64,000 nt of DNA from the NCBI RefSeq assembly GCF_016902445.1, contig NZ_JACSNX010000005.1, positions 1 through 64,000 on the forward strand, given 5' to 3'. This DNA comes from Oscillibacter valericigenes (GTDB lineage: Bacteria; Bacillota; Clostridia; Oscillospirales; Oscillospiraceae). This document shows positions 33,022-49,193 of the stretch, one piece after another. The translations under genes were made by a program, and so were the position numbers. Each line of letters opens with the position of its first letter. Position 1 is the first letter of the stretch. Under the pieces are notes generated by a model. That model had not been told where the DNA came from. It was given only the letters and a program-made list of their open reading frames with translations, and did no database searches.

Positions 33022-33111
33022 AAAGTTTGGCGTAAACTTTGACATTTCCAGCATTGACAAATGGGGCAAAAAGAAACTATCATAAAATACGAAGTATCGT
33101 AAACGTTTGCA
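33022..33111 (+). promoter_or_regulatory. Promoter of the HAD-mutase operon with two dyads, including LacI-type operator S1
   Basis: TTGACA (33054-33059), 18 bases, TATCAT (33078-33083). Operator S1, CGTAAACGTTTGCA (33098-33111), lies just past the start site. Upstream, AAAGTTT-GGCGT-AAACTTT (33022-33040) is a perfect inverted repeat of a different type. S1 matches the operators before the importer, lacI and PiT genes. Confidence 0.7.
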
Positions 33112-33208: not shown

Positions 33209-33946
33209 ATGAATGCGGAATCCCGTTACAAAGCCGTGATCTTTGATCTGGGCGGCACCCTGCGCATCGCTCTGGAGGATGAGCCCTATATGCGGCATGC
33301 CCGCCGGAAAATGGCGGAGATCGCAGGCACTTCTCTGGATGTGGAGGCGTTCTATCAGCTGGTGGAAGATCGCTATGAGGACTACCGCCGCTGGGCGCTG
33401 GCGGAAAACAAGGAGTCCGGAGACGAAGAGCTGTGGCGCAGGTGGCTGCTGCCGGACTATGATCCTGTCCGCATCTCCCAGGTCTGTCACGAGCTCTCCT
33501 TCCAGTACCGGCAGGCCAAGGGGCGCCGTGTGCTGGTGGACGGCGGCAGAGAGGTCATCGAGACCCTGCACGCCCGGGGCTACCGGCTGGGCATCGTCTC
33601 CAACCTGATCGGCGAGCATGAGGTCCCCGACTGGCTGGAGGAGGACCGGCTGGATCCCTATTTCAGCAGCGTGGTCCTGTCCTCCGTCTGCCATCTCCGC
33701 AAGCCCGGCGCGGAGATCTACCGGATCGCTCTGCGGGAGCTTGGCGTGGAGCCCGGCGAATGTGTCTCCGTAGCGGACAACATCAAGCGGGACATCACCG
33801 GCGCCAAGGAGGCCGGGATCGGCTGCAATGTCATTTTCCGCTCTCCGGAAAAAAAGCATCCCGTGGTATTTACGGAGGAAAACCGTCCGGACGCAGTCAT
33901 CTCCCAGTTCACGGAGCTGCTGGATCTGCTGCCGGCGCTGAACTGA
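33209..33946 (+). CDS. HAD-family hydrolase (DxGGT type)
   Basis: The 245-residue protein has HAD motif I as VIFDLGGTL, motif II in GIVSN, motif III Lys in LRKPGAEIYRIAL and motif IV VADNIKRDITGAKEAG. The nucleophilic Asp is kept, but the second Asp of DxDxT, the usual acid-base, is Gly. In that respect it resembles dehalogenase- and phosphonatase-like HADs more than standard phosphatases. AAGGAGG precedes the ATG. The gene is followed 15 bases later by the mutase gene and shares promoter and operator S1. The second HAD protein at 40838 has the same substitution and similar motifs. Confidence 0.85.
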   Translation: MNAESRYKAVIFDLGGTLRIALEDEPYMRHARRKMAEIAGTSLDVEAFYQLVEDRYEDYRRWALAENKESGDEELWRRWLLPDYDPVRISQVCHELSFQYRQAKGRRVLVDGGREVIETLHARGYRLGIVSNLIGEHEVPDWLEEDRLDPYFSSVVLSSVCHLRKPGAEIYRIALRELGVEPGECVSVADNIKRDITGAKEAGIGCNVIFRSPEKKHPVVFTEENRPDAVISQFTELLDLLPALN

Positions 33947-33961
33947 GAGGAGGCATCTTTC

Positions 33962-35530
33962 ATGTCTGCATCTGACCGAGGCGGCGCAGAGCTGGCCCAG
34001 GCCGTCCGGCGGGCCTATGAGGCCGGACAGGACGACTACCATCTGCAGCCGATGGTCCTGACGGAGCACGGCGTCCCCGTGGGCCGCATCCGGGACCATG
34101 ACGCCGTCATCTTCTGCTGCCGCCGGGGCGAGCGGGAGGTGGAGCTGACGGAGCTTTTCACCCAGCCGGACTTCACGCCGGTGGAACGGCGGTCCCTGCG
34201 GGATCTGTACTTCGCTATCCTGACCCTGTATCACGACAAGTTCAAGGACCTGCCCGTGGCCTTCGCCCCTGCCCATGTGGAACGGCCGCTGGCGCAGGTG
34301 CTGTCAGAGGCCGGAAAGACCCAGCTCCACTGTGCGGAGTCTGAAAAATTCGCACATGTCACCTTTTTCTTCAACGGGGGCGAGAATCGTCCCTTCCCCG
34401 GAGAGGATGACGTCTGTATCCCCTCGCCCAAGGGCATCGACTTCGACCAAAAGCCGGAGCTGTCCCTGCCCCAGGTGGCGGAGACTGTGACCCGGGCGCT
34501 GGGGAAGTACGACTTCATCGTCACCAACTTCGCCAACGGCGACGTGATCGGCCACACCCAGAACACCGCCGCCAAGCTGGAGGCCTGCGGCCACGTGAGC
34601 CGCCATCTAGGTGCCGTGGTAAAGGCCGCGCTGGCTCAGAACTATGTGGTGGCTATCACCGCCGACCACGGGAACATCGAAAAGCTCTACACCGCCTCCG
34701 GCAAGCCGGACGGCGCCCACACCACCAATCTGGTCCCCTTCCTGCTGCTGGATCCGGCGCAGAAGGCGCCGATCTCCCTGCGGGACGGCTCTCTGTGCGA
34801 CGTAGCCCCCACAGTCCTCGACGTGATGGGCATCCCCCAGCCGCCGGAGATGACGGGCCGCTCTCTGGCGGAAGGCCATGCCTGGGGACCTGACCGAAAG
34901 ATGCTGCTGATCATCTGCGACGGCTGGGGCCTGGGGACCGGCGACAGCGGCGACGCCATCCATCTGGCGGATACGCCGGACTGGGATCGTCTGCTGGCGG
35001 AGTGCCCCTCCTGGTCCCAGCTCCACGCCTCCGGCGAATTTGTGGGCCTGGGCAGCGGAAAGGCCGGCAACTCCGAGGCCGGCCACACCAATCTGGGTGC
35101 CGGGCGCTGCGTCCCCCAGGACGACGTCCGGCTGGACGCCGCCATCCGGGACGGCAGCTTCCAGCACAATCCGGTCTTTCTGCAGGCCATCGACCACGCC
35201 AAGCGCAACGGCTCTGCCCTGCATCTGCTGGCGTATCTGAGCCGCAAGTCCTCCCACGGCTCCATTGACTATCCCCTGGCCATCTGCCGGACGGCGAAGG
35301 AGCAGGGACTGGCGGACGTGTATCTCCATATCATCTTCGACGGCCGCTCCACAGAGCCCGGCTCCGCCCCCGCTCTGCTGGCGGAGCTGGATCAGCAGCT
35401 GGCAGAGATCGGCACGGGCCGCATCGTGGACGGGGTCGGCCGGGGGATCGCCTTGGACCGGGACCGGAACTATGAAAAGGTGAAGCTGGCCTATGACGCT
35501 CTGGTCGACGGGGCCGGTGCCCTCTATTGA
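33962..35530 (+). CDS. Circularly permuted cofactor-independent phosphoglycerate mutase-like metalloenzyme
   Basis: All landmarks of GpmI are present but in rotated order. Residues 1-305 match the GpmI C-terminal part: AYEAGQDDYHLQP, VIFCCRRGERE (both Arg kept), ESEKFAHVTFFFNGG, NFANGDVIGHT (D194, H198), TADHGN (D235, H236), H253 in AHTTN, and DVMGIPQPPEMTG. From about 310 the GpmI N-terminal part follows: LLIICDGWG (D320), HASGEFVGL, GNSEAGHTNLGAGR (catalytic S371), FDGRSTEP, ALDRDRNYEKVKLAYDALV. The break falls just after the AYDALV segment of normal GpmI. One change is DGRDT to DGRST. All metal ligands and the Ser are intact, so mutase or related phosphotransfer activity is likely. GAGGAGG precedes the ATG. 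Confidence 0.85.
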   Translation: MSASDRGGAELAQAVRRAYEAGQDDYHLQPMVLTEHGVPVGRIRDHDAVIFCCRRGEREVELTELFTQPDFTPVERRSLRDLYFAILTLYHDKFKDLPVAFAPAHVERPLAQVLSEAGKTQLHCAESEKFAHVTFFFNGGENRPFPGEDDVCIPSPKGIDFDQKPELSLPQVAETVTRALGKYDFIVTNFANGDVIGHTQNTAAKLEACGHVSRHLGAVVKAALAQNYVVAITADHGNIEKLYTASGKPDGAHTTNLVPFLLLDPAQKAPISLRDGSLCDVAPTVLDVMGIPQPPEMTGRSLAEGHAWGPDRKMLLIICDGWGLGTGDSGDAIHLADTPDWDRLLAECPSWSQLHASGEFVGLGSGKAGNSEAGHTNLGAGRCVPQDDVRLDAAIRDGSFQHNPVFLQAIDHAKRNGSALHLLAYLSRKSSHGSIDYPLAICRTAKEQGLADVYLHIIFDGRSTEPGSAPALLAELDQQLAEIGTGRIVDGVGRGIALDRDRNYEKVKLAYDALVDGAGALY

Positions 35531-35552: not shown

Positions 35553-35738
35553 GGATAACGTTTGCGAACAAATTTGCAGGAACAGGGCGCTTTATGTAAA
35601 GAATGCGCAAGTTCTCTAATCTTTTTTCACAGAAAAATATACAAATATTTGTTCATTCTTCTAAATTAAAAGAGCATTATTGACAAAAACATTTTTGAGG
35701 GGTATCTTTAGTAATAAGAGGAAACGAAAACGCTTGCG
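35553..35738 (+). promoter_or_regulatory. Importer promoter with paired LacI-type operators S2 and S3
   Basis: TTGACA (35680-35685), 17 bases, TATCTT (35703-35708). Operator S3, CGAAAACGCTTGCG (35725-35738), lies about 17 bases past the -10 box. S2, GGATAACGTTTGCG (35553-35566), lies upstream. Their centres are 172 bp apart, suited to repression by looping. The AT-rich DNA between holds a poor hairpin (35587-35608) and a T6 run that may end the mutase transcript. Confidence 0.7.
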
Positions 35739-35786: not shown

Positions 35787-37631
35787 ATGAAACCACAAGA
35801 GCAAACGTATTCAAAAAGCCGGCGGCTGAAGAATCAGATCAAGGCCGTGGTGACCAATCCCTACAACATCATCGTATTGGTCGCCATCGTCCTGTTGGTC
35901 TATCTGATCGTTCTGCCGCTGCTGGACATGATCACAACTACCTTCGAGCTGGCCCAGCGGGATCTGCGGGCCGTGGGCGGTACCATGGATGACGTGGGAA
36001 CGTTTACGCTGTATTACTGGCAGCGGCTCCTGGCCAGCGAATTGTCCTGGACCATGCTGATCAAGCCGCTGATCAACTCCCTGACCATCGGCGTATGTGT
36101 CTCCGTGTGTGCCATCCTGCTGGGATCCATCCTGGCATGGCTGATGGTCCGCTCGGATCTGCCCTTCAAGAAGTTTTTCTCCCTGGCAGTGATCATCCCC
36201 TACATGATCCCTTCCTGGTGCAAATCTCAGGCTTGGCTGTCCATGTTCAAGACTTCCCGCCTCGGCGGCGCACCGGGCTTCATGGCATCCCTGGGGCTGG
36301 ACGTGCCGGAGTGGCTGGCCTACGGCCCCATCGCCATCATCATCGTGCTGACGCTCCACTATTACGCCTATACATATCTGCTGGTGTCGTCGGCACTGGA
36401 CTCCATCAACTCCGAGCTGGAGGAGATGGGTGAGATCCAGGGCGCCGGCAAGGCCATGATCCTCCGCCGGATCACGCTGCCTCTGGTGCTGCCGGCCATC
36501 CTCTCCGCGGTGATCCTGACCTTCTCCAAGGCCATCGGTACCTTCGGCACCATCAACTACCTGGGCTCTCCGGTGCAGTACTACACCCTGTCCAGCCAGC
36601 TGTACATGAACAGCAAGTCCCAGAACACCCAGACGGCGTTTGCCATGGCGATCCTGATGATCATCATCGCCTCCATCGCCGTGTTCATCAACCAGAAGCT
36701 CATCGGCTCCCGCAAGTCCTACGCCACCATCGGCGGCAAGGGCGGACGCTCCACCCTGATCGGTTTGGGGAAAGTCGGCAAGCCGGTGATCACCGTGGTG
36801 CTGCTGGCGTTCTTCGCCGTTGGCATCATCATGCCCATCGTCATCCTGATCCTGGAGAGCTGCATGCTGAAAGAGGGCATCTACTCCCTGGAGAACTTCA
36901 CCCTCCACTACTGGATCGGCGACCCGGACCCGAAGATCATGGAGGGCATGCCCGGCATCTTTCAGAATGAAGATTTTATCAACTCCCTGCTGAATTCCCT
37001 GCGGCTGACGCTGGTGAACGGCGTGTTCGGCACCATCTTCGGCCAGCTGCTGGGCTACATCACGGCCAAGGGCCGCGGCAAGCTCCATGGCAAGCTGGTG
37101 GAGCAGCTGGTGTTCATTCCCTATCTGATCCCGTCCGTGGCCTTCGGCGGCATCTATCTGTCCATGTTCTCCAAGCCCCAGACCCTGTTCGGCGTGACTC
37201 TTGTCCCCGCCCTGTACGGGACCTTCGCCCTGCTGACGCTGGTGTCTGTGGTGAAGCACCTGCCCTTCGCGGCCCGCGCCGGCACCTCCAACATGCTGCA
37301 GATCAGCGGCGAGCTGGAGGAGGCGGCCACCATCGAGGGCGCCGGCTTCTTCCGCCGGTTCGTCAAGATCGTGTTCCCCCTGTCCAAGGGCGGCTTCATT
37401 TCCGGCTTCATGCTGATCTTTGTTTCCATCATGAAGGAGCTGGATCTGATCATCCTGATCATGACCCCCACCACCTCCACGCTGCCGTATCTGGCCTTTA
37501 CCTATCAAAACGGCAACTCGCCCCAGGCATCCAACTGTGTGGCGATCGTGATGTTCGCCATCGTGTTCCTGGTGTACGCGATCGCGAATCTCTCCGGCAA
37601 GGCAGACCTGGCAAAGAGCATGGCAGGCTGA
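35787..37631 (+). CDS. ABC importer permease, fused double domain (AfuB/PhnUV/ThiP-like)
   Basis: The 614-residue protein is two BPD permease domains in one chain, about 12 helices. EAA-type loops are seen in each half: EEMGEIQGAGKAMILRRITL near residue 212 and EEAATIEGAGFFRRFVKIVF near 515. This fused form occurs in Fe3+-type importers, including AfuB for sugar phosphates and permeases for 2-aminoethylphosphonate. It works with the ATPase and lipoprotein genes that follow. AAGAGGAAG precedes the ATG. Ligand is unknown; the genomic context argues for a phosphorus compound. Confidence 0.85.
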   Translation: MKPQEQTYSKSRRLKNQIKAVVTNPYNIIVLVAIVLLVYLIVLPLLDMITTTFELAQRDLRAVGGTMDDVGTFTLYYWQRLLASELSWTMLIKPLINSLTIGVCVSVCAILLGSILAWLMVRSDLPFKKFFSLAVIIPYMIPSWCKSQAWLSMFKTSRLGGAPGFMASLGLDVPEWLAYGPIAIIIVLTLHYYAYTYLLVSSALDSINSELEEMGEIQGAGKAMILRRITLPLVLPAILSAVILTFSKAIGTFGTINYLGSPVQYYTLSSQLYMNSKSQNTQTAFAMAILMIIIASIAVFINQKLIGSRKSYATIGGKGGRSTLIGLGKVGKPVITVVLLAFFAVGIIMPIVILILESCMLKEGIYSLENFTLHYWIGDPDPKIMEGMPGIFQNEDFINSLLNSLRLTLVNGVFGTIFGQLLGYITAKGRGKLHGKLVEQLVFIPYLIPSVAFGGIYLSMFSKPQTLFGVTLVPALYGTFALLTLVSVVKHLPFAARAGTSNMLQISGELEEAATIEGAGFFRRFVKIVFPLSKGGFISGFMLIFVSIMKELDLIILIMTPTTSTLPYLAFTYQNGNSPQASNCVAIVMFAIVFLVYAIANLSGKADLAKSMAG

Positions 37632-37663: not shown

Positions 37664-38785
37664 ATGAGCAAGATCGAATTAAAGCATATCGATAAATTCT
37701 ACGGCAAGAACCACGTGCTGAAAGACCTGAACCTGACCATCGAGGACGGCGACTTCATGACGCTGCTGGGCCCCTCCGGCTGCGGCAAGACCACCACGCT
37801 GCGTGTGGTGTCCGGCCTGGAAAAGCCCCAGAACGGCTTCATTTACATGGACGGCAAGGAGATCGTCAACGCCGCCGAGGCGTACTACGCGCCCCCGTCC
37901 CAGCGGAATTTGAACCTGGTGTTCCAGTCCTACGCCCTGTGGCCCCACATGACGGTGTTTGAGAACGTGTCCTTCGGCCTGAAGATCAAGAAGATCCCCT
38001 CCGCGGAGATCGAGAAGATGGTGGCCAGCGCCCTGGACCGGATGCAGATCGGCCAGTACGCCAAGCGGTACCCCACGGAGCTCTCCGGCGGCCAGCAGCA
38101 GCGGGTGGCCATCGCCCGTGCCATCGTGTCGGAGCCCCGGCTGCTGCTTCTGGATGAGCCCCTGTCCAACCTGGACGCCAAGCTCCGGGTGGATATGCGG
38201 TCCGAGCTGAAGCGCCTGCACCACGACACCGGCAGCACCATCATCTATGTGACCCACGACCAGGTGGAGGCCCTGACCATGTCCACCAAGATCGCCCTGT
38301 TCCGGGAGGGCGAGCTGGTCCAGGTGGATAAGCCCCTGGCGCTGTATGACAACCCCTGCAACCTGTATACGGCGGACTTTATCGGCAACCCCAGCATCAA
38401 CTTCATCCAGGCGGCCGGCACCATCGACGCCGGAGGTCTTGTGGCGGAGGGCATCATGGGCAGGCTGATCTTCCCCAAGGAGGACATGACGGACAACGCC
38501 CCCACCTCCGGCAAGTACGATCTGATCCTGGGCATCCGGCCGGAACAGATCTCCATCTCCCGGGAGCGGACGTCTCCGGAGCAGGTGGAGGCCCACGTCT
38601 ACGCCGGCATGCCCGCCGGCTCCGAGACGCTGGTGGCCGTGCGGGTCGGCGAAAAGCTCATCACAGTAAAGGAACTGGGCTCCACCCACTACGGCGGCGA
38701 CGAAGTCGTGTATCTCTCCTTTGATCCCCGGAAGATCAACGTCTTTGATGCCAAGTCCGAGAACCTGATCAAATACTGCCGCTGA
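37664..38785 (+). CDS. ABC importer ATP-binding protein
   Basis: A 373-residue ATPase of the PotA/FbpC/UgpC class: Walker A GPSGCGKTT, Q-loop LVFQSYALWPHM, signature LSGGQQQRVAIARAI, Walker B LLLLDEPLSNLD and H-loop YVTHDQVEA. After residue about 240 a TOBE-type regulatory domain follows (ILGIRPEQISISRE). It drives the fused permease encoded 32 bases upstream. GAGAGGAGACG precedes the ATG. Operon with permease and receptor. Confidence 0.9.
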   Translation: MSKIELKHIDKFYGKNHVLKDLNLTIEDGDFMTLLGPSGCGKTTTLRVVSGLEKPQNGFIYMDGKEIVNAAEAYYAPPSQRNLNLVFQSYALWPHMTVFENVSFGLKIKKIPSAEIEKMVASALDRMQIGQYAKRYPTELSGGQQQRVAIARAIVSEPRLLLLDEPLSNLDAKLRVDMRSELKRLHHDTGSTIIYVTHDQVEALTMSTKIALFREGELVQVDKPLALYDNPCNLYTADFIGNPSINFIQAAGTIDAGGLVAEGIMGRLIFPKEDMTDNAPTSGKYDLILGIRPEQISISRERTSPEQVEAHVYAGMPAGSETLVAVRVGEKLITVKELGSTHYGGDEVVYLSFDPRKINVFDAKSENLIKYCR

Positions 38786-38892: not shown

Positions 38893-40101
38893 ATGTTGAA
38901 GCACAAGAAGCTATTGAGCCTTCTGCTGGCCGCTACGATGCTGTTCACCGTCACCGGCTGCGGCGGCGGGACGGACGACGGCGGTGCCGCTGGCGACACC
39001 GGCGAGAGCGGTCTGACAGAGTGGGAAGAGACCGCCAACATCTATGCCACAGACGAGACGGATGAGGAACTGTATGAGCAGGCCATCGCGGAGGGCGGCG
39101 AGGTCACGCTGTACTCCATCTCCTCCCGCTGCGGCAAGGTGGCCGAGGCCTTCACGGCCAAGTATCCTGAGATTGAGTGCACCGCCTTCGATATCTCCAC
39201 CAACGAGCTGCTGGAAAAGGTCACCCGTGAGCACGAGGCCGGCCAGTACGTGGCGGATGTGGTCCACATCAAGGATCAGGACGGCTCCCTGTACAACGAA
39301 TACGTGCAGAACAAGATCTTCTATCTGTATCAGCCCGCCGACATCTTCTCTCACATCGACCCCAGCTACACGGAGACCGCCACTCCCCTGTACATTGAGC
39401 TGACCCAGCTGTTCTACAACGCCGAGGCCTATCCCGACGGCTCTCCCATCACCAACATCTGGCAGCTGACCGAACCCCAGTGGAAGGGCAAGATCCTGAT
39501 GCAGAATCCGCTGGATAACCTGTCCTGGGGCTCCTGGATCACCGGCTTCTGCGTGGGCGATGTGCCCGATCAGCTGGCTGCCGCCTATGAGGAGCTGTAC
39601 GGCGAAGCCCTGGTCCTCTCCGACGGCTGCGAGAACGCCGGCTATGAGTTCCTGAAGCGCCTGCACGACAATGAGCCCATCTATACCTCCTCCTCTGACG
39701 AGATCGCCGAGGCCGTGGGCACGCCCGGTCAGTCCGATCCTCCCGTGGGCTTCTCTGCCTCCTCCAAGCTGCGCAAGAACGAGGACAACGGCTGGGTCCT
39801 GGCCCCCGTGAATCTGTATCCCACCACCGGCATCCCCGCCATCAACACCCTGTACGTGGTGGAGGGCTGTGAGCATCCCGCCGCCGCCAAGCTGCTGATC
39901 CGCTTCATGATGGGCGGCATCGACGGCGACACCAGCGGCTATGAGCCCTTCAACACCCTGGGCGGCTGGCCCGTCCGGGACGACATCGAGCCCGCCGAGG
40001 GATCCACTCCCTACTCCGAGCTGAACGTGTCTCCCTTCGATCCCGACGAGATCTACGTGACCTACAACACGGTCCGTGACTTCTGGCAGATGCTCGGCTG
40101 A
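38893..40101 (+). CDS. ABC importer substrate-binding lipoprotein (AfuA/FbpA-like)
   Basis: The 402-residue protein has a lipoprotein signal, MLKHKKLLSLLLAATMLFTV then TGCGG, with the lipobox Cys near residue 23. An acidic, glycine-rich linker follows. The body is a type-II periplasmic-binding fold of the Fe3+/AfuA/PhnS cluster (GEVTLYSISSRCGKVAEAF, DVVHIKDQDGS, ELTQLFYNAEAYPDGSP). AfuA was shown in another species to bind hexose phosphates, so an iron role should not be assumed. AAGGAGG precedes the ATG. It is third in the importer operon; a large hairpin after it may set its expression higher. Confidence 0.85.
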   Translation: MLKHKKLLSLLLAATMLFTVTGCGGGTDDGGAAGDTGESGLTEWEETANIYATDETDEELYEQAIAEGGEVTLYSISSRCGKVAEAFTAKYPEIECTAFDISTNELLEKVTREHEAGQYVADVVHIKDQDGSLYNEYVQNKIFYLYQPADIFSHIDPSYTETATPLYIELTQLFYNAEAYPDGSPITNIWQLTEPQWKGKILMQNPLDNLSWGSWITGFCVGDVPDQLAAAYEELYGEALVLSDGCENAGYEFLKRLHDNEPIYTSSSDEIAEAVGTPGQSDPPVGFSASSKLRKNEDNGWVLAPVNLYPTTGIPAINTLYVVEGCEHPAAAKLLIRFMMGGIDGDTSGYEPFNTLGGWPVRDDIEPAEGSTPYSELNVSPFDPDEIYVTYNTVRDFWQMLG

Positions 40102-40202: not shown

Positions 40203-40790
40203 ATGAGTCTGTTTGTCGATAAGAACCACCGGCGGAAGAGCCCCATCGCCATTGCCGGATTTTTCACCACCGTGCTGTTTCTCTGCGTCTACGGCGTGCT
40301 GTACGTCCTGCTGGCAGAGCCGCTGTACCGGCATGTGGCGCTGTCCAGCCCCGCCGCCACCAACGTGGCGCACGCGCTGATCATCTCCCTTGCGGGGACC
40401 GCCCTCTGCGGGCTGCTGTTCCTGCTGAAAGATAAGCGCGTGGCCCTGTTCGGCTTCGTGGGGCTGGCGGTGGTCCTGGTCATGTTCTACGTGGCCACAT
40501 TTCTGATGGAGGACAGCCGGCGTGATATGATGCTGCCGCTGATCACACTGTACGGCCTCGCCCCGGCCCTGGTGGGCAATGCCGCTGCATGGCCTTTGTA
40601 CCTCAAGCTGAGAAAGACCCATCCCCTGCCGCAGCCAAAGACGCTACGCGAGGAGATCCGGGAGGCGGCCGGGACTTCCGGCAGCCCTGCTGTTCATGCT
40701 GCGCCGCCGTCTGCCGCGGCCGCGTCCCGGCGTTCCCCGGAAGAAGACGCCATGCTGCTTTACGGGGACGACGGGGACAGCGCCGTCTGA
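40203..40790 (+). CDS. Four-helix membrane protein of unknown function
   Basis: The 195-residue protein begins MSLFVDKNHRRKSPIAIAG and has four hydrophobic segments (about residues 17-37, 55-75, 80-103 and 108-128). A cytoplasmic tail rich in Ala, Ser, Pro and acidic residues follows. CAAGGAGC precedes the ATG. It lies between the importer and the second HAD gene, all in one direction, so it is probably part of the same transcript. I do not recognise the family. A regulatory or assembly role for the importer is a guess only. Confidence 0.7.
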   Translation: MSLFVDKNHRRKSPIAIAGFFTTVLFLCVYGVLYVLLAEPLYRHVALSSPAATNVAHALIISLAGTALCGLLFLLKDKRVALFGFVGLAVVLVMFYVATFLMEDSRRDMMLPLITLYGLAPALVGNAAAWPLYLKLRKTHPLPQPKTLREEIREAAGTSGSPAVHAAPPSAAAASRRSPEEDAMLLYGDDGDSAV

Positions 40791-40837: not shown

Positions 40838-41608
40838 ATGCTGACAACAGTCCTATTCGATATGGGCGGGACCCTGGAGGATATCTGGTACAACAAAGAG
40901 ACCCAGCAGGAGGCCGCCCGGAAGCTCCTGGAGATCCTGCGGGACCACGGCCTGGATCCCGGCTGCCCGCAGGAGGTCTTCTGGGAGAAGCTCTTCAGCG
41001 GAGTGAAGGCCTACAAGCAGTGGAGCGAGGGCAACATGCTGGAGAAAAAGCCGGAGGAGATCTGGCCGGACTGGTATCTGCGGGACTTCGCCTTTGACCG
41101 GGAGCAGCTGCTGCCCATCACGGAAGAACTGGCCAACACCTATGAGGTGACCTTTTACCACCGGGAGCTGCGCCCCGATGCCCGGGAGATGCTGCAGGCC
41201 CTGAAGAACCGCGGCTACCGCCTGGGCGTCATCTCCAACAACGCCTCCCTGTACAATGTGTTCAACATGCTGGAGACGTACGGCATCCGTTCCTTCATGG
41301 AGGATGTGACCGTATCCAGCGTCACCGGCTACCGCAAGCCCCATCCGGAGATCTTCCGGATCTCCCTGCGGCAGATGCAGGCCCGGCCGGAGGAATGCGT
41401 CTATGTGGGCGACACCGTCTCCCGGGACATCATCGGCCCCAAGCAGGTGGGCTTTGCCAAGGCAGTCCAGATCCGCTCCTTCCTCTCTGAGCAGAAGGAC
41501 GTGGGACTGTCCCGGGACGTGTTCCAGCCGGACACGGTGGTCCGGGACCTGCGGGACCTGGTCACCTGGCTGGATGAGATCAACCCCCGGCTGGCTCCGC
41601 ATCCATAA
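40838..41608 (+). CDS. HAD-family hydrolase (DxGGT type), second copy
   Basis: The 256-residue protein has VLFDMGGTL (motif I, second Asp replaced by Gly as in the 33209 gene), GVISNN (motif II), YRKPHPEIFRISL (motif III) and VGDTVSRDIIGPKQVG (motif IV). It has a helical cap of about 100 residues. AAAGGGAG lies before the ATG at 40838. It follows the membrane protein by 47 bases and ends with a clear terminator. The two HAD genes flank the importer and are probably paralogues acting on related intermediates. Confidence 0.85.
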   Translation: MLTTVLFDMGGTLEDIWYNKETQQEAARKLLEILRDHGLDPGCPQEVFWEKLFSGVKAYKQWSEGNMLEKKPEEIWPDWYLRDFAFDREQLLPITEELANTYEVTFYHRELRPDAREMLQALKNRGYRLGVISNNASLYNVFNMLETYGIRSFMEDVTVSSVTGYRKPHPEIFRISLRQMQARPEECVYVGDTVSRDIIGPKQVGFAKAVQIRSFLSEQKDVGLSRDVFQPDTVVRDLRDLVTWLDEINPRLAPHP

Positions 41609-41718: not shown

Positions 41719-42465
41719 TCAGCAGCAGAGGCCCTCTGCCACGCGGCAGAGCCGGTCCGGCCGGTTGGTGATGATCCCGTCCGCACCGCGGGCGATCATA
41801 TCCCGCATATCCGCCTCTTCATTGACCGTCCAGGTGTGGATCTCCATTCCCCGCTCATGAAACAGATCCGTCAGCTCCGGCAGGTTCTGGAGGAGCCGGT
41901 ACCGGGGATGGATGCAGTCCGCATTGGAGCCGTCCAGATAGCGGTCCATGTGCAGCAGCGGCTTGTCGTACAGGAGTCCTGTCCGGATCTCCGGGCAGAG
42001 CGTCTTGAACCTCTGCATGGAGAGATGGTTGAAGGACGAGACGAACACCTGCTCCTGCATCTGGCGGCTGGTCACCGCATCGATCACCCGCTGCTCCAGC
42101 CCCTCGTAGAAAAAGAAGTCGTTTTTCAGCTCCAGGTTCAGCAGCCTGTCCGTCTCCCGGCAGAAGTCCAGCAGCTGATCCAGCGTCCAGATGTGCTGTC
42201 CTGCAAACGCCGGAGACTTCCAGACGCCGATGTCCAGCTCCAGCAGCTCCTGATAGGTATGATCCCGAACGAAGCCGGTGCCATTGGTGGTGCGGTCCAC
42301 AGTGTCGTCGTGGATGATCACCGGAACGCCGTCCCGGGTCATGTGGACGTCGCTTTCAAAGCCGTCTGCCTCTGTCCGGTCCACGGTCATCTGAAAGGCC
42401 AGCGGGCTGTTCTCCGGGTACTGTTCGCTGAAACCGCGATGGGCCAAGATCAACGGTCTTTTCAT
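41719..42465 (-). CDS. Glycerophosphodiester phosphodiesterase
   Basis: The 248-residue protein starts at 42465 (MKRPLILAHRGFSEQYPENS). The GDPD active site is complete: LAHRG and PENS, FESDVHMTRDGVPVIIHDDT with metal-binding Glu and Asp, and LNLELKND. It hydrolyses glycerophosphodiesters to glycerol 3-phosphate and an alcohol. No signal peptide is seen, so substrates must be imported or made inside the cell. It is on the minus strand, divergent from the ABC exporter pair. It supports the idea that the region handles phosphorus-containing metabolites, though no LacI-type site is seen before it. Confidence 0.9.
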   Translation of the reverse strand: MKRPLILAHRGFSEQYPENSPLAFQMTVDRTEADGFESDVHMTRDGVPVIIHDDTVDRTTNGTGFVRDHTYQELLELDIGVWKSPAFAGQHIWTLDQLLDFCRETDRLLNLELKNDFFFYEGLEQRVIDAVTSRQMQEQVFVSSFNHLSMQRFKTLCPEIRTGLLYDKPLLHMDRYLDGSNADCIHPRYRLLQNLPELTDLFHERGMEIHTWTVNEEADMRDMIARGADGIITNRPDRLCRVAEGLCC

Positions 42466-42540
42466 CTGTCCGTTCGCTTCCTTTCCGGCGGTCTTCCGCC
42501 GCAGCCGCGCGCCCTGCAGGGCCGCGTTCGATTTATCTGT

Positions 42541-42569
42541 AGTATAGGAGCTTTTGTGTGAACCTGCAA
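42541..42569 (-). promoter_or_regulatory. Promoter of the GDPD gene
   Basis: On the minus strand TTGCAG (42564-42569) and TATACT (42541-42546) with 17-base spacing, about 75 bases upstream of the GDPD start. Confidence 0.6.
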
Positions 42570-42622
42570 GAGGACGGGACATTTTCTCCGGTCCAGACTC
42601 TCTCCGAAAAGAAGGCGATGGC

Positions 42623-44332
42623 ATGAAAACAGTTCTGGGATACCTCCGCCCTTATGCCGGGCGGGCCGCCTGCGGCGTGCTCATCAAGTTTTCCGCCGCC
42701 GTTCTGGAGCTGATCCTCCCCCTGCTGCTGGCCAACGTCATCGACGTTCTGGTCCCGGCCCGGGATCTGCCTGCCATCTGGCGGACCGGCGGACTGATGC
42801 TGGTGCTGGCCTTCGGCGCGGCGGCCGGCAACATCCTGGCCAACCGCATGGCGGCACGGGTATCCATGGAGATGACCCGGGATCTGCGGCGGGACTTGTA
42901 CCATCAGATCCAGCACCTGCCCTGCGCCCGGGCGGACCGCTACTCCGCCTCCTCCCTGGTCTCCCGGCTGACCAACGACACCTATAACATCCATCAGATG
43001 TTCGACAAGATCCAGCGTGGCGGCGTACGCGCCCCCATGCTGGTGCTGGGCGGTCTGACCCTGACCTTTCTGCTGGAGCCCGTCCTGGCGCTGGTGCAGT
43101 TCTGCGTCAGCCTGCTGACCTTCCTGACCATCTTCCTGGTGACCCGCCGGGGCGTCCCCTTTTACGGAGAGGCCCAAAGCGCCGTGGACACCGTGGTCCG
43201 CATCCTGCGGGAAAATGCCGCCGGTGTCCGCGTCATCAAAGCTCTGGCCAGCCAGAGGCGGGAACAGGACCGGTTTGAGCAGGCCAACCGGCGGGACAGG
43301 GCCGCTGAAGAGCGGGCCGGCCGTGTGATGGCACTGACCAATCCCATCACCGATCTCCTGCTGAACCTGGGGCTGACCCTGGTGGTGCTGGTGGGGGCCG
43401 TCCAGGTGAATGCCGGTGCCATGCCCGCCGGACAGATCGTGGCGTTTTTGACCTATTTTGCCCTGATCCAGAGCGCCACACTGGGCATCGCCAAGGTCTT
43501 TGTCCGGATCAGCAAGGGCGTGGCCTCCGCCCGCCGGATCCGCCAGGTCCTGGAAGAACCTCCGACCCAGTCCCTCTCCGGCGCAGATGCGCGCCGGCCG
43601 GAACTCCTGGGGATGGAGGGGGCCACCTTCTCCTACCACGGGGTAGAGCCGGACCTGGCGGATGTGAGCTTCACCCTGCAGAAAGGGCAGACGCTGGGCA
43701 TTCTGGGTCCCACCGGCAGCGGCAAGACCACACTGGTCTCCCTGCTCCTGCGGCTCTACGACGCAGACAGCGGCGTCGTCTGGGTAGGCGGGCAGGACGT
43801 CCGGTGCCAGACGCCCCGGGCCGTGCAGGACCGGTTCGGCGTCGCCTTTCAGAGCCAGAGCCTTATCGCCGGGACCATTTATGAGAACATCGCCTTTCTG
43901 CGGGATCTCCCCCGGCAGGATGTAGAGGCCGCCGTGGACACCGCCCAGGCCCGGGAGTTCGTCTCCCGCCTCCCCCAGGGGCTGGACACCCCTCTGGAGC
44001 TGCGGGGCGCCAACCTCTCCGGCGGCCAGCGGCAGCGGCTGCTGATCGCCCGGGCGCTGGCCGGCCGGCCGGAGATCTTGGTGTTGGACAACGCCGACAG
44101 CGCCCTGGACTATCAGACAGCCGCCCGGCTGTGGGCGGCGCTGCGCCGGGACTTCCCCAGGACCACCCTGGTGATCATCTCGGAGCGCGTGGCCTCCGTG
44201 CGGGATGCGGACTGCATTCTGGTGCTGGAGCACGGCCGGATCATGGCCAGCGGACGCCATCAGGACCTGCTGGTGTCCGCTCCCCGCTACCGGAAAATGG
44301 CAGAGCTGCAGATGGGAGGCGAGGCGGTATGA
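42623..44332 (+). CDS. ABC exporter half-transporter with degenerate ATP site
   Basis: The 569-residue protein has six membrane helices (residues 1-310) and a nucleotide-binding domain with Walker A GPTGSGKTT and signature LSGGQRQR. The catalytic Glu after Walker B is Asn (LVLDNADSALD) and the H-loop His is Glu (IISERVASV). Such a degenerate half is typical of heterodimeric exporters, where only one of two sites hydrolyses ATP. Its partner is the next gene, overlapping by 3 bases. AAGAAGG precedes the ATG. The substrate (drug, lipid or peptide) is unknown. Confidence 0.85.
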   Translation: MKTVLGYLRPYAGRAACGVLIKFSAAVLELILPLLLANVIDVLVPARDLPAIWRTGGLMLVLAFGAAAGNILANRMAARVSMEMTRDLRRDLYHQIQHLPCARADRYSASSLVSRLTNDTYNIHQMFDKIQRGGVRAPMLVLGGLTLTFLLEPVLALVQFCVSLLTFLTIFLVTRRGVPFYGEAQSAVDTVVRILRENAAGVRVIKALASQRREQDRFEQANRRDRAAEERAGRVMALTNPITDLLLNLGLTLVVLVGAVQVNAGAMPAGQIVAFLTYFALIQSATLGIAKVFVRISKGVASARRIRQVLEEPPTQSLSGADARRPELLGMEGATFSYHGVEPDLADVSFTLQKGQTLGILGPTGSGKTTLVSLLLRLYDADSGVVWVGGQDVRCQTPRAVQDRFGVAFQSQSLIAGTIYENIAFLRDLPRQDVEAAVDTAQAREFVSRLPQGLDTPLELRGANLSGGQRQRLLIARALAGRPEILVLDNADSALDYQTAARLWAALRRDFPRTTLVIISERVASVRDADCILVLEHGRIMASGRHQDLLVSAPRYRKMAELQMGGEAV

Positions 44333-46141: not shown

Positions 46142-46234
46142 TTGACAGAAAGAATAAAAATAGATATTCTCTTATATAAGAATTCAAATCTTACAGCTAT
46201 AATCTTCTTTTATTTGGAATCGGAAACGCTTGCG
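46142..46234 (+). promoter_or_regulatory. lacI promoter and operator S4
   Basis: TTGACA (46142-46147), 17 bases, TATTCT (46165-46170). S4, CGGAAACGCTTGCG (46221-46234), differs from S3 by one base and lies 38 bases before the lacI ATG, as expected for autoregulation. Confidence 0.75.
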
Positions 46235-46271: not shown

Positions 46272-47285
46272 ATGAAACGGGTCACTTTAAAGGATGTCGC
46301 CAAAACCGCGGGAGTCTCCTACGCCACGGTTTCCAGAGCGCTGTCCGGAAGCAATCAGATCGGGCAGGCCACCCGCGAGCGGATCGTCCGCCTGTGTGAG
46401 GAGATGGGCTATACCGGCAACTACGTGGCCAGGTCCATGGTCAAAAAGAAAACGGATCTGATCGGCCTTGTGGTGCCGGCCATCGAAAACGAATTCATGT
46501 CTCAGCTGGCCTATTATGCAGAGATGAGTGCCCGCTCCCACGGATACAACATCATGCTCTGTGATTCCGGGCCGGATCTGCGGCAGGAGATCAATGTGGT
46601 CAAACTGCTGCTGGGCCGCCAGGTGGACGGCATCCTGATCGTCCCTCAGAACTCCATCACCTACGAGCATATCGCGGCCTATATCGAGGATGTCCCCACT
46701 GTGTTTCTCAGTGAAAACCTGCGGGATCAGCCCCAGAGCTATGTGGCCATCGACAACAGCCGGGGGACTTTTCTGGGGACGGAGTACCTCTACCGCCTGG
46801 GGCACCGGGAGATCCTCTATTTCGGCTGCCGGGATTCCACCACCCACCGCCTGCGGGCGGAGGGCTACCAGCGTGCCTGTCAGAAGTTCGGTCTCCGGGA
46901 GCGGATCCTCCACAGTGAGTTTCCCCGCTCTTCCATCGAAAACGGATATCAGATGGCAAAGGCCCTGTTCGAGAAGCCCATCGACTACACGGCGATCTTC
47001 GCCTCTACGGACTCCAATGCGCTGGGCATCATGAAGGCCGCTGACGAGCACGGCATCCGCATCCCCGATCAGCTGTCCCTCATCGGGTTCGACAACATCC
47101 CCTCCACAGCTCTTCCCCGGATCGAGCTCACCACCATTGAGCAGCCGAAGAAGGCCATGGCCATCCAGGCGGTGGAGATGCTGCTGGACAAGATCGAGCA
47201 TGAGACCCAGGGCTATGTCCATCAGATCCTGATGCCCAGCCTTGTGGAGCGTTCCACTTGCCGCTCCATCCAGGAGGACGGCTGA
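46272..47285 (+). CDS. LacI-family transcriptional regulator
   Basis: The 337-residue protein has the LacI headpiece (VTLKDVAKTAGVSYATVSRA, then LSGSNQIGQATRERI) with recognition residues YATVSRAL, a hinge helix (YVARSMVKKKT) and a sugar-binding-like effector domain. YxTVSR proteins bind palindromes with a central CG, which fits the six operators found here. AGAGGAAAGG precedes the ATG. An operator in its own promoter suggests autoregulation. Inducer unknown; the linked genes suggest a sugar phosphate, phosphoglycerate-like or other organophosphorus metabolite. Confidence 0.92.
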   Translation: MKRVTLKDVAKTAGVSYATVSRALSGSNQIGQATRERIVRLCEEMGYTGNYVARSMVKKKTDLIGLVVPAIENEFMSQLAYYAEMSARSHGYNIMLCDSGPDLRQEINVVKLLLGRQVDGILIVPQNSITYEHIAAYIEDVPTVFLSENLRDQPQSYVAIDNSRGTFLGTEYLYRLGHREILYFGCRDSTTHRLRAEGYQRACQKFGLRERILHSEFPRSSIENGYQMAKALFEKPIDYTAIFASTDSNALGIMKAADEHGIRIPDQLSLIGFDNIPSTALPRIELTTIEQPKKAMAIQAVEMLLDKIEHETQGYVHQILMPSLVERSTCRSIQEDG

Positions 47286-47976: not shown

Positions 47977-48996
47977 TCAGAACACCTGCGAAAGCAGAAC
48001 GAACAGCAGTGCCCCCAGTGTGCCCGCCACCGGGATGGTGATGAACCAGGAGAGCAGGATCCGCCTGGCTACGATCCAGTGCACCGCCTTGTACCGCTCC
48101 GCCGCTCCCACGCCCATGATGGAAGAGGATACGATCTGGCTGGCGGAGACCGGCGCCCCCAGCAGCGACGCTCCCAAAATCACAGATCCTGCCGTCAGCT
48201 GGGAAGCGAAGGAGTGGATGGGCTGGACCTTGTAGATCCCGGTCCCCACCGTCTTGATGATCTTGAATCCGCCGAAGGCAATGCCACAGGCCAGGCACAC
48301 AGCCGCGCAGGAGATCGCCCACAGCGGGATCTCCCGGGTCTGCCCGCCATAGATGCCCAGCAGGATCAGAAGGATGCCGATGGATTTCTGGGAGTCATTG
48401 AACGAGTGATTGAACGCCAGGAAGGTCATATTGACCCACTGGGCGTATGTAAAGAATTTGTTGACGCCCACACCGGCGCAGCGCGTCAGCCGCAGCAGCA
48501 GCTTCAGGATGCAGAAGCCCAGGCAGAAACTCACCGCCGGCGTCAGGAAGATCATCAGGACCACTCTCCCCCAGAAATAGTGCCAGGCGATGGCGCCGGT
48601 GCCAAAGGCCGCCAGCCCGGCACCCACCACGCCGCCGATGAGGGAGTGGGAGGACGAGGCCGGGATCCCGAATTTCCAGGTGATGAGATTCCACAGGATC
48701 GCCGCCAGAATGCCGCCGGTGATAAAGGCCAGTGCCGTCTCCTCCGCTCCGTCCCCGGTGTAATATGTCTCCCCCACCAGATTCTGGATGGTATCAGACA
48801 CGCTGGCCCCCAGCACCAGGATCAGGAAGGGCGACAGCAGCTCCACCACCGCAGCCCAGGCCAGGGCCATCTTGGGCTTCATGGCGCGGCTGGCGATGAG
48901 CGTAGCCACCACATTGCATCCGTCGTGAAAGCCGTTTACATAGGTGAATACAAAAACCAGACCGGCCAGTATCACAAATGAGCCCTCCAGCTCCAT
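47977..48996 (-). CDS. pit: PiT-family inorganic phosphate transporter
   Basis: The 339-residue membrane protein begins MELEGSFVILAGLVF. The first PiT signature is NGFHDGCNVVATLIASRAM (Cys where Ala is usual) and the second is GIPASSSHSLIGGVVGAG. PiT proteins move metal-phosphate with protons or sodium. The start at 48996 follows GGGAGGGG; an in-frame codon 39 bases upstream overlaps operator S5 and is rejected. Control by the LacI-type sites is unusual, since PiT is normally constitutive or phosphate-linked. It may balance phosphate released from an imported organophosphate. Confidence 0.9.
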   Translation of the reverse strand: MELEGSFVILAGLVFVFTYVNGFHDGCNVVATLIASRAMKPKMALAWAAVVELLSPFLILVLGASVSDTIQNLVGETYYTGDGAEETALAFITGGILAAILWNLITWKFGIPASSSHSLIGGVVGAGLAAFGTGAIAWHYFWGRVVLMIFLTPAVSFCLGFCILKLLLRLTRCAGVGVNKFFTYAQWVNMTFLAFNHSFNDSQKSIGILLILLGIYGGQTREIPLWAISCAAVCLACGIAFGGFKIIKTVGTGIYKVQPIHSFASQLTAGSVILGASLLGAPVSASQIVSSSIMGVGAAERYKAVHWIVARRILLSWFITIPVAGTLGALLFVLLSQVF

Positions 48997-49017: not shown

Positions 49018-49096
49018 CGCAAACGTTTTCTGCAAATCGAGAAAAATTCATCCAGAGTTCAAAATAAATTATGGCCCTTTCCGCTCCGAATGTCAA
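49018..49096 (-). promoter_or_regulatory. PiT promoter and operator S5
   Basis: On the minus strand TTGACA (49091-49096), 17 bases, CATAAT (49068-49073). S5 (49018-49031) reads AGAAAACGTTTGCG on the minus strand, one base from the consensus, and lies in the leader 36 bases past the -10 box. Confidence 0.7.
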
Positions 49097-49179: not shown

Positions 49180-49193
49180 ATCAAACGTTTGCA
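49180..49193 (-). promoter_or_regulatory. Auxiliary LacI-type operator S6
   Basis: ATCAAACGTTTGCA, with core CAAACGTTTG, is centred 162 bp from S5, upstream of the PiT promoter. Together with S5 it mirrors the S2/S3 pair (172 bp). The DNA between is AT-rich and has no gene. Confidence 0.6.

Follow-up and report, generated by a model that had tools for sequence, protein, structure and literature searches.

Can a cofactor-independent phosphoglycerate mutase (GpmI, or iPGM) carry the two halves of its chain in exchanged order, and if so, what does such a protein act on? The question is raised by one open reading frame of Oscillibacter valericigenes, which an earlier note had described as a circular permutation of GpmI, broken in the phosphotransferase domain and possibly changed in substrate. 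We examined this gene together with its homologs and its surroundings in the window, by which we mean the whole stretch of 64,000 nucleotides that was analyzed. The gene, hereafter cpGpmI, is as follows:

33962 to 35530, + strand: circularly permuted GpmI relative (cpGpmI), 522 amino acids, in a single open frame (Pfam, NCBIfam, phmmer)

Domain order and predicted fold of cpGpmI

The best PDB match of cpGpmI is chain A of 1ejj, the GpmI of Bacillus stearothermophilus (phmmer, E = 4e-111), and it is obtained in two stretches of swapped order. Residues 15 to 302 correspond to 1ejj residues 220 to 508, and residues 313 to 522 to 1ejj residues 5 to 213. Pfam likewise places Metalloenzyme first and iPGM_N after it. 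The NCBIfam profile TIGR01307 scores 462 bits against a cut-off of 331, meeting the sequence-match criterion for GpmI, with its best stretch pairing residues 10 to 302 with profile positions 212 to 503. The usual phosphatase-transferase-phosphatase order of GpmI is thus absent, and the order is rotated. The new termini fall at about Y213/R214 (1ejj numbering), within the phosphotransferase domain, and a linker of about 10 residues (303 to 312) connects the old N and C termini. With domain limits as we take them to be, the parts run: C-terminal half of the transferase, C-terminal part of the phosphatase, linker, N-terminal part of the phosphatase, N-terminal half of the transferase. Both the permutation and the position of the break proposed in the earlier note are upheld; a profile alignment in normal order, which it had named as a refutation, is not what Pfam and NCBIfam give. 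A tandem duplication was also considered and was rejected because, taken together, the two phmmer stretches amount to a single GpmI chain.

The earlier note had itself cautioned that an assembly or sequencing error might have fused two halves of a normal gpmI, a caveat for which we found no support. A search for homologs recovered the same rotation in 61 distinct proteins, a single complete genome (CP102272) carries two permuted copies, and the window's own genome encodes, in addition, an intact normal-order GpmI (a 513-residue frame on contig C74 of G000) that is 44 to 45% identical to cpGpmI in each half. Because equally rotated homologs occur in many genomes, an artefact can be excluded for all practical purposes.

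AlphaFold2 returned a confident model of cpGpmI (pLDDT 91.5, pTM 0.83), supplying the fold prediction that the earlier note had proposed as a check. VIA matches the model to 1ejj over residues 7 to 304 (Z 22.6, rmsd 3.2, 293 aligned), and Foldseek gives a TM score of 0.48; since these aligners work sequentially, each comparison is confined to a single half. The portions of PMC5382265 that were available describe iPGM as two domains connected by two hinge peptides. The rotated chain is inferred to take up the two-domain clamshell fold of GpmI. Neither hinge is presumably touched by the cut or the join, if the hinges lie where we assume.

Distribution and phylogeny of permuted proteins

After removal of identical rows, the 61 distinct permuted proteins, from Bacillota and Chloroflexota, comprise 47 of a first clade, which includes cpGpmI (clade 1), and 14 of a second (clade 2). 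Among 60 genomes sampled near the window, full-length permuted matches of at least 74% identity occur in 15 of the 37 from the same genus (its own included), and there are none in the 23 genomes from other families of its order. A scan of contigs yielded 30 loci, of which 25 (L023 to L047) are full-length and permuted and four (L049 to L052) have normal order; the remaining one, L048, ends at a contig end. Permuted loci come from Oscillospiraceae, an Erysipelotrichaceae bacterium, [Clostridium] asparagiforme, Anaerolineaceae, other Chloroflexota, and unplaced Firmicutes. Relatives that are 77 to 82% identical to cpGpmI are assigned to Oscillibacter and Dysosmobacter, and the complete genome of [Clostridium] asparagiforme (CP102272, G065) holds one normal copy besides its two permuted ones (L028 and L053).

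Sampling the class of one Chloroflexota genome (G075, the source of L038) gave permuted matches in 22 of 298 genomes, G075 included: 9 at 57 to 61% identity and 13 at 41 to 46%. The latter 13, with one more from a phylum-level sample, form the second, more divergent clade (L071 to L083 and L098), all in Chloroflexota genomes. The trait is patchy in the window's own class, since a permuted match was found in only 2 of 391 sampled genomes, its own and one other, with at most three candidates scored per genome. A tblastn search of plasmids returned 40 records, all below 60% identity; no permuted copy is present among the eight matches listed, because each of these aligns in two pieces.

A tree was computed from 85 rows (35 clade 1, 14 clade 2, and 36 normal order); in it, the permuted proteins make up one side of a branch with support of 100/98, and each clade is supported at 100/100. 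This tree omits 13 rows, 12 near-duplicate clade-1 proteins and 1 normal one, and the partial proteins L049 and L105 had already been excluded. The breakpoint is the same to within a few residues, as 13 clade-2 matches span query positions 9 to 14 through 518 to 520. This pattern fits a single permutation event, inferred from a tree that is unrooted, with a limited sample of normal GpmI and with long branches to both clades. The first tree had already given a warning of long branches meeting between the two permuted clades.

Catalytic residues are kept and Asp154 is lost

Aligned to 1ejj, residues S371, D194, H198, D235, H236, H253, and D320 of cpGpmI correspond to S62, D403, H407, D444, H445, H462, and D12. 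These seven, the catalytic serine and the ligands of the two metals, are kept in all 65 permuted rows (61 distinct proteins), as are H123, R153, R185, R191, R261, R264, and K336. The earlier note's reading that the serine, both arginines, the lysine, and all metal ligands are retained therefore agrees with the alignment.

The same note held that the DGRD(T) motif alone is altered. In cpGpmI, DGRST does replace DGRD, i.e., D154 becomes Ser at residue 463; the claim fails in that V122S, S124G, H125S/C, N259C, F260R, and D263E, which adjoin catalytic residues in sequence, are changed as well. Asp154 is absent from all 61 distinct permuted proteins (47 Ser and 14 Gly; 51 and 14 of the 65 rows), Gly marking the second, Chloroflexota clade, and it is kept in 17 of 17 normal-order rows and in 35 of 36 in a larger normal set. 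V122S, S124G, and D263E are fixed in both permuted clades and absent from normal rows. N259C and F260R are fixed in clade 1, where position 125 is Ser or Cys; position 260 is Phe in GpmI, Arg in clade 1, and Leu or Ile in clade 2.

The role of D154 in iPGM is to contact the hydroxyl from which, or to which, the phosphoryl group moves. Given that Asp154 is missing and that the window's clade has gained an arginine at position 260, the substrate is probably not 2- or 3-phosphoglycerate (2-PG or 3-PG), and the two changes together suggest a different one, as far as an alignment can indicate. The changed substrate at which the earlier note had hinted gains support from this loss in 61 of 61 proteins and from the gene context described below, without biochemical proof.

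The sole exception lacking D154 among the 36 normal-order rows is L128 (contig C64 of G003), from the same genus. This normal-order GpmI relative is degenerate, with H123Y, D154T, R261G, D444S, and H462G.

Host genomes usually encode another phosphoglycerate mutase

We counted normal-order GpmI and the archaeal-type enzyme ApgM in genomes with permuted proteins, leaving the cofactor-dependent GpmA outside the count. Another phosphoglycerate mutase is present in 23 of the 25 genomes with a clade-1 protein reached through L023 to L047: normal-order GpmI in 13 (two as fragments, in G060 and G071) and ApgM above its cut-off in 10. G063 (1.6 Mb) and G084 (1.4 Mb), both small genomes, have neither. 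Within the genus sample, cpGpmI is accompanied by a normal-order GpmI in 12 of 15 genomes, in one of them as a fragment, and none was found in the other three (G005, G012, and G015). For clade 2, a normal-order GpmI occurs in 0 of the 13 genomes checked (of 14), and ApgM is above its cut-off in 12 of them and in pieces in the 13th. The window's clade is probably not glycolytic, an inference for which there are no activity data.

Neighbors and putative regulation in the window

Around cpGpmI the window encodes the following:

33209 to 33946, + strand: HAD-IA hydrolase directly upstream of cpGpmI, motif I DxGxT (profile)
35787 to 37631, + strand: fused double permease of an ABC importer; best profiles ModB, PhnU2, WtpB, and CysT, all below cut-offs
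37664 to 38785, + strand: ATPase of the ABC importer; best profiles UgpC, PotA, and PhnT, below the cut-off of all 25 families listed
38893 to 40101, + strand: solute-binding protein, predicted fold FbpA/AfuA/MctA-like
40203 to 40790, + strand: small open reading frame between the binding protein and the second HAD, no Pfam family
40841 to 41608, + strand: second HAD-IA hydrolase, motif I DxGxT (start chosen by us; listed frame from 40589)
41719 to 42624, - strand: glycerophosphodiester phosphodiesterase (GDPD; profile)
46272 to 47285, + strand: LacI-family regulator (start chosen by us; called frame from 46230)
47977 to 48996, - strand: PHO4 inorganic phosphate transporter (start chosen by us)

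The earlier note's remark that the gene sits with HAD enzymes and an importer rather than with glycolysis genes is borne out by these frames and their profiles. We tried the fold of the binding protein as a reporter of the substrate and set it aside as uninformative. Among the many proteins it resembles are AfuA and VcA0625, which bind glucose-6-phosphate, and it fits ferric-iron and metal-citrate binders too; because iron, metal-citrate, and sugar-phosphate binders tie, it leaves the ligand undecided. Proteins of 162 to 197 residues also follow the binding protein in L029, L030, L032, L035, and L059, which does not imply homology to the small frame at 40203 to 40790.

From the regions flanking LacI genes in four Oscillospiraceae loci (L054, L055, L057, and L059), we read a palindromic 12-mer consensus, GCAAACGTTTGC. 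The window has seven matches with up to two mismatches, none of them assigned to a strand:

33099 to 33110: LacI-type palindrome upstream of HAD-cpGpmI, 1 mismatch
35554 to 35565: LacI-type palindrome upstream of the importer, 2 mismatches
35726 to 35737: LacI-type palindrome upstream of the importer, 2 mismatches
35801: 12-mer match inside the start of the permease, at most 2 mismatches
46222 to 46233: LacI-type palindrome upstream of the LacI gene, 2 mismatches
49019 to 49030: LacI-type palindrome upstream of the phosphate transporter, 1 mismatch
49181 to 49192: LacI-type palindrome upstream of the phosphate transporter, 1 mismatch

Shuffled sequences average 1.55 matches, and 0 of 100 shuffles reach seven. 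When the palindrome was scanned for more strictly, in four stretches of the window, no site emerged. The whole genome has 9 sites with at most one mismatch, versus 1 for a backward control. Five of the 9 lie in the window or in a transketolase/LacI/PHP/kinase locus on contig 19, and the 4 outside both putative regulon loci look like chance matches. Relatives have 38 such sites in 17 loci, versus 0 to 3 for 19 rearranged palindromes; as 4 of these loci had supplied the consensus, the window is the more independent test.

Because LacI-type sites precede them, the importer, HAD, cpGpmI, and phosphate transporter genes look co-regulated, a prediction from sequence that no binding data yet accompany. 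The kinase/transketolase set at the other locus carries the same predicted site. A CcpA-type rather than a LacI-type site may be involved and is not excluded. In several loci the palindromes are paired, about 160 to 215 bases apart. A different palindrome with core GCACACGTGTGC lies upstream of a divergent LacI gene in three Chloroflexota loci (L041, L042, and L044), where it is perhaps the operator.

Neighborhoods of relatives and a possible link to inositol

We surveyed 35 clade-1 loci, read over stretches of differing length with frames called by a custom script rather than a gene finder, and annotated only one or a few members of each neighbor cluster by profile. A HAD hydrolase lies directly upstream on the same strand in 28 of the 35, a LacI regulator is present in 24, and an importer permease or binding protein in 21. 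Less frequent are a PHP-like protein (12 loci; 25.1 versus a Pfam cut-off of 26.4, hence just below it), a kinase resembling TM0415 (12), split transketolase (10), ApgM (10, as a near neighbor), transaldolase (6), GDPD (5), a metallo-beta-lactamase-fold protein (4), and a phosphate transporter (4). In clade 2, neither a HAD nor an importer of the clade-1 type was found near any of the 10 loci read (L084 to L093).

Motif I is DxGxT in all 87 frames of the HAD cluster, from 29 loci, so that its customary second Asp is missing. The Escherichia coli alpha-glucose-1-phosphatase YihX has a similar motif. A related HAD in L094 to L096 reads DAAGV (L094 copy).

An inositol-type gene lies near 18 of the 35 loci; none is present in the stretch read at the other 17, the window included. 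IolG occurs in 6 loci, IolB in 6, and IolD in 4, and curated cut-offs are exceeded by IolB and IolD in L042 and by IolG in L024. The neighboring kinase matches TM0415 at E = 3e-38, and the copy at 1657 to 2538 of L024, the only one whose alignment was read (by eye), matches PPi-dependent kinases at 4 of 5 donor-site residues. TM0415 is a PPi-dependent myo-inositol kinase according to the accessible part of PMC5931981. Another TM0415-like kinase is found at L129:9398, and, as judged by eye, a protein near cpGpmI in both L037 and L046 resembles a proton-pumping pyrophosphatase.

Across the genus, the TM0415-like kinase (at least 80% identity) accompanies cpGpmI in 15 of 15 genomes, versus 3 of 22 without cpGpmI (Fisher P = 9e-8). 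An IolG-type match (E up to 1e-60) is present in 11 of 15, versus 1 of 22 (P = 2e-5), with 2 of these 12 genomes below the family cut-off. Neither statistic is corrected for relatedness. In the window's own genome, both genes are on contigs other than the window's. In G002, one of the three genomes with the kinase and without cpGpmI, the contig ends a few hundred bases after the HAD gene.

Discussion

cpGpmI is homologous to GpmI and fails two of its defining features, domain order and Asp154, as judged from alignments. It has both domains, the Ser nucleophile, and the metal ligands in common with GpmI (TIGR01307; 1ejj), but its halves are swapped, D154 is Ser or Gly, V122S, S124G, and D263E are present, F260 is changed, and the clade-1 proteins sit among HADs and an importer. 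ApgM (TIGR00306/PRK04135) belongs to the alkaline-phosphatase superfamily, as does cpGpmI, but is a separate protein whose profile cpGpmI does not meet (31.4 bits versus a TIGR00306 cut-off of 320). Phosphopentomutase (3m7v) has the phosphatase domain in common (VIA Z 11.7, rmsd 2.6, 174 aligned) and a different cap domain; its profiles PRK05362 and PRK12383 give 28.9 and 34.8 bits, versus cut-offs of 256 and 254, and are not met. We know of no TM0415/myo-inositol catabolic cluster that contains a GpmI relative or a phosphate-ester importer.

On balance, we lean toward a naturally permuted GpmI subfamily that folds as GpmI and acts on a phosphate ester other than phosphoglycerate, with an inositol phosphate as the leading candidate; substrate and reaction are both inferred. 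Under this proposal, the neighboring importer would bring in an anionic phosphate ester other than 2-PG or 3-PG. Ser371 and the two metals would take the phosphoryl group from it, forming a phosphoserine as in GpmI, and the group would pass to another hydroxyl of the substrate (a mutase) or to water (a phosphatase). The HAD hydrolases would strip the imported ester further, and the apparently co-regulated PHO4 transporter would handle the freed phosphate. Moving phosphate from one hydroxyl of the inositol ring to its neighbor would be akin to interconverting 2-PG and 3-PG. Among possible substrates we rank inositol phosphate first, as a tentative judgment that falls short of even chances, then other sugar or sugar-acid phosphates, and plain phosphoglycerate mutase activity third.

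The second-ranked alternative, in which the enzyme acts on some other phosphorylated sugar or sugar acid (a uronate, pentose, or hexose phosphate) and not on inositol phosphate, overlaps with the proposal above and differs from it only in substrate. Three Chloroflexota loci adjoin UxaE and other sugar-acid genes (D-mannonate oxidoreductase and Lar_N), the split transketolase and transaldolase at 10 and 6 loci point the same way, and so does the resemblance of the binding protein to AfuA and VcA0625, shared as it is with many others. This alternative has to contend with the IolB, IolD, and IolG genes that exceed curated cut-offs in L042 and L024 and with the kinase that tracks cpGpmI through the genus; we regard it as possible though not probable. 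It is also conceivable, if rather unlikely, that the permutation is neutral and cpGpmI is a second ordinary mutase, its 2-PG/3-PG interconversion intact and perhaps serving phosphoglycerates that are imported. The conservation of 14 of the 15 active-site residues checked and a score above the TIGR01307 equivalog cut-off would be expected of such an enzyme, the proximity of an ApgM gene in 10 of 35 loci favors it, and one copy from [Clostridium] asparagiforme (L028) lies beside a TctA/TctC carboxylate transporter and an RpiR-like gene named by eye. The one residue lost, however, is missing from every permuted protein and present in 35 of 36 normal-order rows; another phosphoglycerate mutase is encoded by 23 of 25 genomes; and the window gene has an operator-like site and HAD and importer neighbors, not glycolysis genes. 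The other copy in [Clostridium] asparagiforme is near an ABC importer whose binding protein falls in the cluster of the PhnS2-like one of L031.

The author of the earlier note knew of no description of a permuted GpmI, and we likewise found none among the full-text literature matches listed (for one query, 10 of 512), a search that did not cover subscription papers and most preprints. The string "permut" is absent from PMC2964296 and PMC5382265 and "mutase" from PMC12667903; PMC2876114, in the portions available, deals with other proteins.

With at least 61 distinct proteins in two phyla, cpGpmI shows that a two-domain enzyme of central metabolism has been circularly permuted in nature, and it is a clean case of a change in topology accompanied by loss of a substrate residue. 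The domain insertion is inverted, from transferase in phosphatase to phosphatase in transferase, and both interdomain hinges should survive. Scoring above the TIGR01307 cut-off, the window's protein would be labeled GpmI by automatic annotation, which would mislead reconstructions of glycolysis. More speculatively, and with rather low probability, cpGpmI may be a cofactor-independent inositol-phosphate phosphomutase, an activity that is inferred, shifting phosphate between neighboring ring hydroxyls, for example in the Ins(2)P left from phytate, and feeding an unrecognized inositol-phosphate pathway of gut and other anaerobes. A pathway from myo-inositol to butyrate, for which Dysosmobacter welbionis is named, is stated not to be fully characterized in the part of PMC12482443 available to us, and it is this incompletely characterized pathway that the possible inositol link of cpGpmI would touch.
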